Made by a program: the position numbers and the translations under genes. The notes below the pieces were generated by a model that saw only the letters and a program-made list of their open reading frames with translations, was not told where the DNA came from and searched no databases. Positions 12,655 to 13,016 of a DNA stretch of 64,000 nucleotides are shown in pieces. The stretch is from Stentor roeselii. Taxonomy: Eukaryota; Ciliophora; Heterotrichea; Heterotrichida; Stentoridae. The stretch lies in NCBI GenBank assembly GCA_006503475.1, contig RSEH01000028.1:1-64000 (forward strand). The letters are read 5' to 3'. The first letter of the stretch is position 1; each line of letters starts with the position of its first letter.

Positions 12655-13016
12655 ACCCTAATAAATAAATAAGCTTTTTAACACCTGTAATTATTTCAGC
12701 CATTAAGTAAGCCAATTTCAACCAATTAAACTTAACACCCTTCAACAAATTTATGATTTTTAAATTAACACCCTAACACCCTACAGAAAATAAACAACAA
12801 AATCAACACTCTATACAAAAAGTTAACACCCTAACAACAGTAAGTTAACAAAAGAAAACTTTACAACAGAAATTAACACCATAACACCTACAGCAAAATA
12901 AACAACAGAAATTAACACCCTACCCACATAAAAATAAATTCAGAAATAACACCCTACATCAAAATAAGCACCCTAAACTATCAAGCTATAATTTTCAGCC
13001 ATTCCAAAATAACACC
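12655..13016. repeat. degenerate telomere-like repeat tract (TTAACACCCTA motifs)
   Basis: At least ten variants of AACACCCTAACA-type motifs lie in the same orientation, C-rich on the + strand. The best is TTAACACCCTAACACCCTAC at 12765-12784. Others lie near 12731, 12823, 12872, 12912, 12948 and 12969. They sit in a larger imperfect repeat with TACAG and AAAATAAACAACA spacers. As I recall, the heterotrich telomere repeat is CCCTAACA, which these copies match in phase. The tract ends 37 nt before the next start codon. Confidence 0.65.

Follow-up and report, generated by a model that had tools for sequence, protein, structure and literature searches.

What is a run of degenerate telomere words doing between two genes of a ciliate contig, and what process put it there? 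The window, as we call the whole stretch of DNA analysed, comprises bases 1-64000 of contig C196 (212,713 bases), in an assembly of 44.39 Mb and 522 contigs. A preliminary description of the locus had offered three origins: the scar of an end fusion, an alternative telomere-addition site, or a minisatellite grown from a telomeric seed. The features that concern us are the following.

10514..12577, + strand: upstream gene model of 687 aa with WD40 repeats and a TGA stop (gene model, domain scan)
12679..13016, + strand: degenerate telomere-word array with ten TAACACC words, the C-rich strand being the + strand
12762..12923, + strand: tandem-repeat part of the array as found by TRF, unit ~54 bp, 2.9 copies, 70% match, score 158
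12765..12783, + strand: exact-phase doublet TTAACACCCTAACACCCTA, two telomere units, seed-like (sequence reading, motif search)
12873..12888, + strand: second doublet TTAACACCATAACACC, the sole A/G variant doublet found in the genome
13054..14448, + strand: downstream gene model of 459 aa with a predicted 15-nt intron at 13123-13137

The array is far too rich in telomere words for its base composition. The preliminary description had counted at least ten telomere-like motifs, all C-rich on the + strand, with one stretch in exact phase, and both observations hold: every one of the ten TAACACC words in 12679-13016 is on the + strand, where 5000 first-order Markov copies of 12655-13016 contain a mean of 0.19 such words and at most 4, and the phased stretch is TTAACACCCTAACACCCTA at 12765-12783. 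AACACCC does not occur on the - strand within 12679-13016. The window holds eight copies of AACACCCT, six of them inside the array, against 1.57 expected, a count reached by none of 100 shuffles. Exact matches to TTAACACCCTA are limited to three words; when up to two mismatches are allowed, the whole window has 23 matches against 15.2 expected, a number attained in 2 of 100 shuffles, so that chance readily yields the looser motif. Two telomere units are the most that stand in phase. With its 54-bp unit, the array has the head-to-tail tandem structure of more than ~10 bp that defines a minisatellite, and it also carries the species' own telomere repeat, as a short interstitial telomeric sequence does, given CCCTAACA at contig ends and the doublet at 12765-12783. 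A DNA search of the whole genome, in which simple repeats are skipped, returned the self-match only and no second copy.

The telomere itself is (CCCTAACA)n, read at contig ends of the present genome, which bears out the telomere identity given in the preliminary description. Perfect telomere 24-mers number 547, and all 100 of those listed (contigs C5 to C70) are no more than about 160 bases away from a contig end, to the extent that contig sizes or cut loci reveal it. A near-identical telomere-word sequence is found near the starts of two contigs on opposite strands (C174:66-119, +; C357:96-149, -). The Rfam ciliate telomerase RNA family gave no match above its cut-off; a single match at E 3.1 fell below it, as did matches in 6 of 14 control genomes. 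The genome is gene-dense (324 kb modelled). Gene models were permitted introns of 15-17 nt only and use 31 of 15 nt, 7 of 16 nt and 9 of 17 nt. TGA ends 34 of 205 complete gene models and is therefore a stop codon in the present genome; Stentor uses the standard genetic code. The repeat and these genome features fit a heterotrich-type ciliate, and the telomere-capped contigs suggest that the genome is somatic. The next gene starts 37 nt to the right of the array, as first described (model start 13054 versus array end 13016), and its product has no Pfam match at E 0.001. Elsewhere in the window are a U6 spliceosomal RNA gene (23876-23978, +; Rfam RF00026, 97.1 bits), a 21-bp tandem repeat of 9.2 copies and 97% match at 21052-21245, within gene model 18536-21439, and A/G-rich long tandem repeats with units of 9-60 bp at 57753-58332, within gene model 56684-59407.

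Readings of the locus as a one-off do not survive a genome-wide word count: the preliminary description had said that its reading would fail if the motif recurred in many intergenic tracts unrelated to one another, and such tracts are what the count found. There are 240 matches to TTAACACCCTA versus 19 to the reversed word, and 107 pairs of TTAACACC spaced 8-38 bases apart versus 0 in the reversed-word control. Two or more close telomere words occur at no fewer than 68 places, merged by hand from 100 of the 240 TTAACACCCTA matches and 100 of the 107 TTAACACC pairs plus two further word lists, and some of the single-pair places may fall in coding sequence. Three of these places are at contig starts (C174, C276, C357) and 65 are elsewhere, 11 of the latter on contigs whose size was not seen. 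The sample comprised 10 kb around each of 20 clusters, 3 kb around each of 20 places taken from the TTAACACCCTA list, and smaller pieces besides.

The islands take two forms: compact tracts of 2-7 head-to-tail 8-nt units, and filler arrays, in which each unit joins at least one telomere word to locus-specific filler and measures 12-165 bp, varying among loci. Since compact tracts run head to tail for 3-7 units of 8 nt, the words represent telomere units, not A/C-rich text that arose by chance; several compact relatives, such as L054 and L056, have the phased run expected of a short interstitial telomeric sequence, which the window array, with its two units, does not reach. The window array is a decayed filler array, among the most degenerate of the class. 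Location is largely intergenic: among the window array and L010-L029, 20 of the 21 lie between genes and L016 overlaps a gene model, and all 33 TRF arrays that contain two or more telomere words, from loci chosen for those words, count as intergenic. The 20 TTAACACCCTA-list places divide into 11 in gene models (partial genes on 3-kb pieces) and 9 intergenic, and small clusters in coding models are found at L034 (three words), L043 (two) and L045 (two). One compact tract, L050, lies on the window's own contig beyond the window and on the opposite strand (C196:76481-76513), with the end of one gene on one side and a ribosomal P1-type gene, by its 3' end, on the other. In L020 (4258-5965), a TATA-binding protein gene and a divergent methyltransferase gene have another compact tract between them, 77 and 22 nt from their starts.

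The compact tracts also carry a second repeat. In ten of them, with 55 units in total, units depart from CTAACACC 28 times, and 22 of these departures are the same change, first base C to T, giving TTAACACC; the first unit is biased in this count, most of the ten having been found by patterns that begin with TT. A count free of this bias agrees: AACACCTTAACACC occurs at 40 places in 29 loci, and AACACC(A or G)TAACACC at a single place, position 12875 in the window array. For the 38 AACACCTTAACACC places on contigs of seen size, the nearest contig end is 2.6 kb away or more, and the two on C161 have a known left distance of 9 kb. None of 15 true ends shows the T variant, although the sequence examined at 13 of them covers just 37 bases at the junction; the outer part of true end L007 is irregular in other ways, and an assembly consensus could hide scattered variants. 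A single change at a single position is not the product of random decay, for which the TTAACACC variant is far too specific. It might instead stem from telomerase errors confined to one position, from germline telomeres in which repeats are mixed, or from selection acting on the word. Mixed-repeat telomeres are known from Paramecium and Tetrahymena. We tentatively raise the idea, which we think has a modest chance of being right, that a second telomere repeat, TTAACACC (on the G strand TGTTAAGG, versus TGTTAGGG units), unseen at the somatic ends read, left the interior tracts as its fossils; either telomerase would err at one template position with the consensus hiding it, or germline telomeres would differ and leak into interior sites during repair.

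The edges of the compact tracts are likewise nonrandom. Right edges end 1-3 bases past AACACC in 17 of 23 cases (p = 0.0004), or in 17 of 26 when three loci that were cut too short (L064, L068, L072) are counted against (p = 0.004), whereas 4 of 15 true ends do so. The junction phase is CCCTAA at 5 of 15 true ends and CCCT or CCCTA at 14 of 23 tracts, two distributions that overlap yet differ over few cases. This phase bias counts against a random captured fragment. When the flanks of the compact tracts were compared for telomerase-RNA-like sequence, only five 8-letter words were found in common, each in two or three loci.

Could the window array instead be a true or former chromosome end, either an alternative telomere-addition site or the scar of a left end? 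Its strand is right for a left end, as the preliminary description had noted, and many alternative addition sites are known in Blepharisma stoltei (PMC9942806). Across the class, however, orientation says nothing of ends: when strand is compared with contig half, 26 of the 48 loci on contigs of known size point outward, as by chance. For only one of these 48 loci is a contig end closer than 5 kb. Moreover, no second contig matching the neighbouring gene was found in the assembly, and the TTAACACC variant of the interior tracts is absent from the short reads of the 15 true ends. We consider a chromosome end at this locus very improbable. A subtelomeric origin of the islands as a class was rejected, the median distance to a contig end being ~46 kb over the 48 loci. 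Fusion of two chromosome ends would place telomere words at an interior site, but it would leave G-rich and then C-rich repeats on one strand, and the window array, with no opposite-strand AACACCC, does not have this head-to-head order. Head-to-head word pairs are rare genome-wide (7 sites versus 1 for the control), and no listed array has one, though a single-word place on the list (C130) does; tail-to-tail pairs are found at 11 sites versus 1 for the control, again with none at a listed array. We accordingly give the fusion scar almost no credence. The array might, finally, be non-telomeric, low-complexity A/C-rich intergenic DNA that resembles telomere by chance, as 5' flanks are A/C-rich, ten non-telomeric intergenic tandem repeats are present in the background part of the sample, and loose word matches in the window are near chance level. 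The exact 8-nt head-to-tail phase of the compact tracts, the 0 given by reversed-word controls and the Markov copies, with at most 4 words against 10, make such a coincidence highly unlikely.

A different alternative concerns function rather than origin. The words might form a telo-box-like promoter element that binds a telomere-binding or Myb-type protein and aids transcription start of the gene to the right. The orientation table covers 31 arrays carrying three or more words (27 plus four, L056-L059, that were read by eye); classes were made by hand for L016, for L050, L051, L052 and L054 (one side by eye for these four) and for L056-L059, of which L059 is uncertain. The second small cluster of L027 was merged, and L019 (two words only), L034 (words inside a coding model) and two-word clusters such as L031, L032 and L045 were left out. 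The C-rich strand reads into the next gene, and so is its sense strand, at 22 of the 31 arrays versus 17.6 expected (0.567; p = 0.076). Counting sense or nearest gene gives 18 of 25 informative loci (one-sided p = 0.022), under a nearest-gene rule that was set after part of the data had been seen, and 18 of 26 (p = 0.038) with the near-tie L024 (21 versus 23 nt) counted against. Eight of ten compact tracts are 9-138 nt before an ATG (p = 0.12), and some precede housekeeping genes: RPS13 (L054), a methyltransferase (L055) and a mitochondrial pyruvate carrier (L028). The L020 tract precedes a methyltransferase gene, with the TATA-binding protein gene divergent, and the gene behind the L029 tract we take to encode a chaperonin-like protein. 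Ten chosen flanking proteins were scanned, and the ribosome-related neighbours are RPS13 at L054 and the ribosomal P1-type gene, by its 3' end, at L050. In upstream flanks outside arrays, AACACCC occurs 7 times in sense and 0 in antisense and CCCTAA 22 versus 4 times, more than three scrambled control words (1:1, 2:2 and 0:2).

Against this promoter role stands, above all, the general skew of the genome. Outside arrays, gene 5' flanks have C 0.173 and G 0.103 on the sense strand (142 flanks), and downstream flanks C 0.117 and G 0.152 (127 flanks), so that a C-rich tract upstream of a gene is expected on the sense strand; the + strand C-richness of the window array beside a + strand gene fits this skew. 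The gene models in the window and in L010-L049 have 5' flanks that are A/C-rich and 3' flanks that are G/T-rich on the sense strand, and TTAGGG is found 15 times after genes versus 4.9 expected. By their neighbours, 12 of the 31 arrays are divergent, 10 are tandem-sense, 4 are tandem-antisense and 5 are convergent, a mix close to that of background intergenic bases outside arrays (51% tandem, 31% divergent, 18% convergent). Between tandem genes, 10 arrays are sense and 4 antisense (p = 0.09), and the five arrays between convergent genes include L050. Upstream flanks show no excess of complete 8-nt telomere words (2 sense, 1 antisense), the nine intergenic places from the single-word list divide into 4 sense and 5 antisense, and the core is barely better kept than the filler. 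The telo-box reading, which was prompted by early arrays before ATGs, is thus weakened by the convergent and antisense cases and by the general C-rich 5' skew; a promoter role of the arrays is weakly suggested, and we judge it unlikely.

Over 25 TRF arrays from 23 loci, the match to consensus is 94.7% in the core and 92.9% in the filler (Fisher p = 0.014), and the core is the better kept in 20 of the 25; the window array has 88.9% and 90.1%, respectively. Because the loci were chosen by exact core words, this small gap does not amount to constraint. Constraint on the core was considered and rejected, the array alignments showing a small difference only, and core and filler are similarly conserved, as for near-neutral repeats.

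We therefore favour, with moderate confidence, the minisatellite option of the preliminary description, the best supported of its three: the array would be an old, decayed minisatellite grown from a short interstitial telomeric sequence. A few telomere repeats would have been placed internally, probably in break repair by telomerase or through captured telomeric DNA. Insertion at an empty site we infer rather than read from an orthologous comparison. Tandem duplication would then have taken in one flank of the seed, a step backed by comparison between loci, since a word repeated with locus-unique filler in units whose length varies by locus indicates that the duplication included one seed flank. 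The copies would subsequently have decayed. No function is needed, and the best reading is that the islands are mostly neutral; the weak sense-strand bias, the few clusters in coding models and the better-kept core count against neutrality. In all likelihood the window array is one unremarkable, decayed example of the telomere-seeded minisatellites that form a class across the genome, and the class, above all its variant repeat, is the more interesting result.

How does this class compare with known systems? Vertebrate short interstitial telomeric sequences were inserted in one step at breaks (PMC7215372, PMC8537989). The islands resemble them in being short tracts at many unrelated interior sites with one orientation per tract and no fusion pattern. 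They differ in that many loci are minisatellites with locus-specific filler, in that much of every compact tract consists of the second repeat type, TTAACACC, and in that there is no common flank resembling a telomerase RNA copy, although no telomerase RNA was found for comparison. As in plant telo-boxes (PMC3022908), telomere words are found in 5' flanks, sometimes before translation-related genes; unlike them, the islands are multi-copy arrays at tens of loci, and their weak orientation bias is confounded by base skew. Blepharisma stoltei (PMC9942806) has the identical telomere repeat, CCCTAACA, and introns mostly of 15 and 16 bp, similar to the 15-17 nt of the present models. Its alternative addition sites are read-level ends on some molecules, whereas the window array is a fixed interior array, and it reads TGA as Trp, whereas TGA is a stop here (34 of 205 gene-model stops); Blepharisma was rejected as the source of the genome on account of this stop. 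In the literature listings covered, outside which most subscription papers lie, no title or abstract opening describes such arrays or the TTAACACC variant in heterotrich ciliates.

These findings describe a compact, ciliate-like genome in which tens of interior telomere islands probably seeded minisatellites and so preserve a natural archive of how telomere DNA has been put to use in chromosome interiors. If the genome is somatic, such islands occur in organisms that fragment and re-cap their chromosomes in development. The recurrence of a single variant raises a testable question, namely, which repeat the telomerase or the germline telomere carries in the present lineage.
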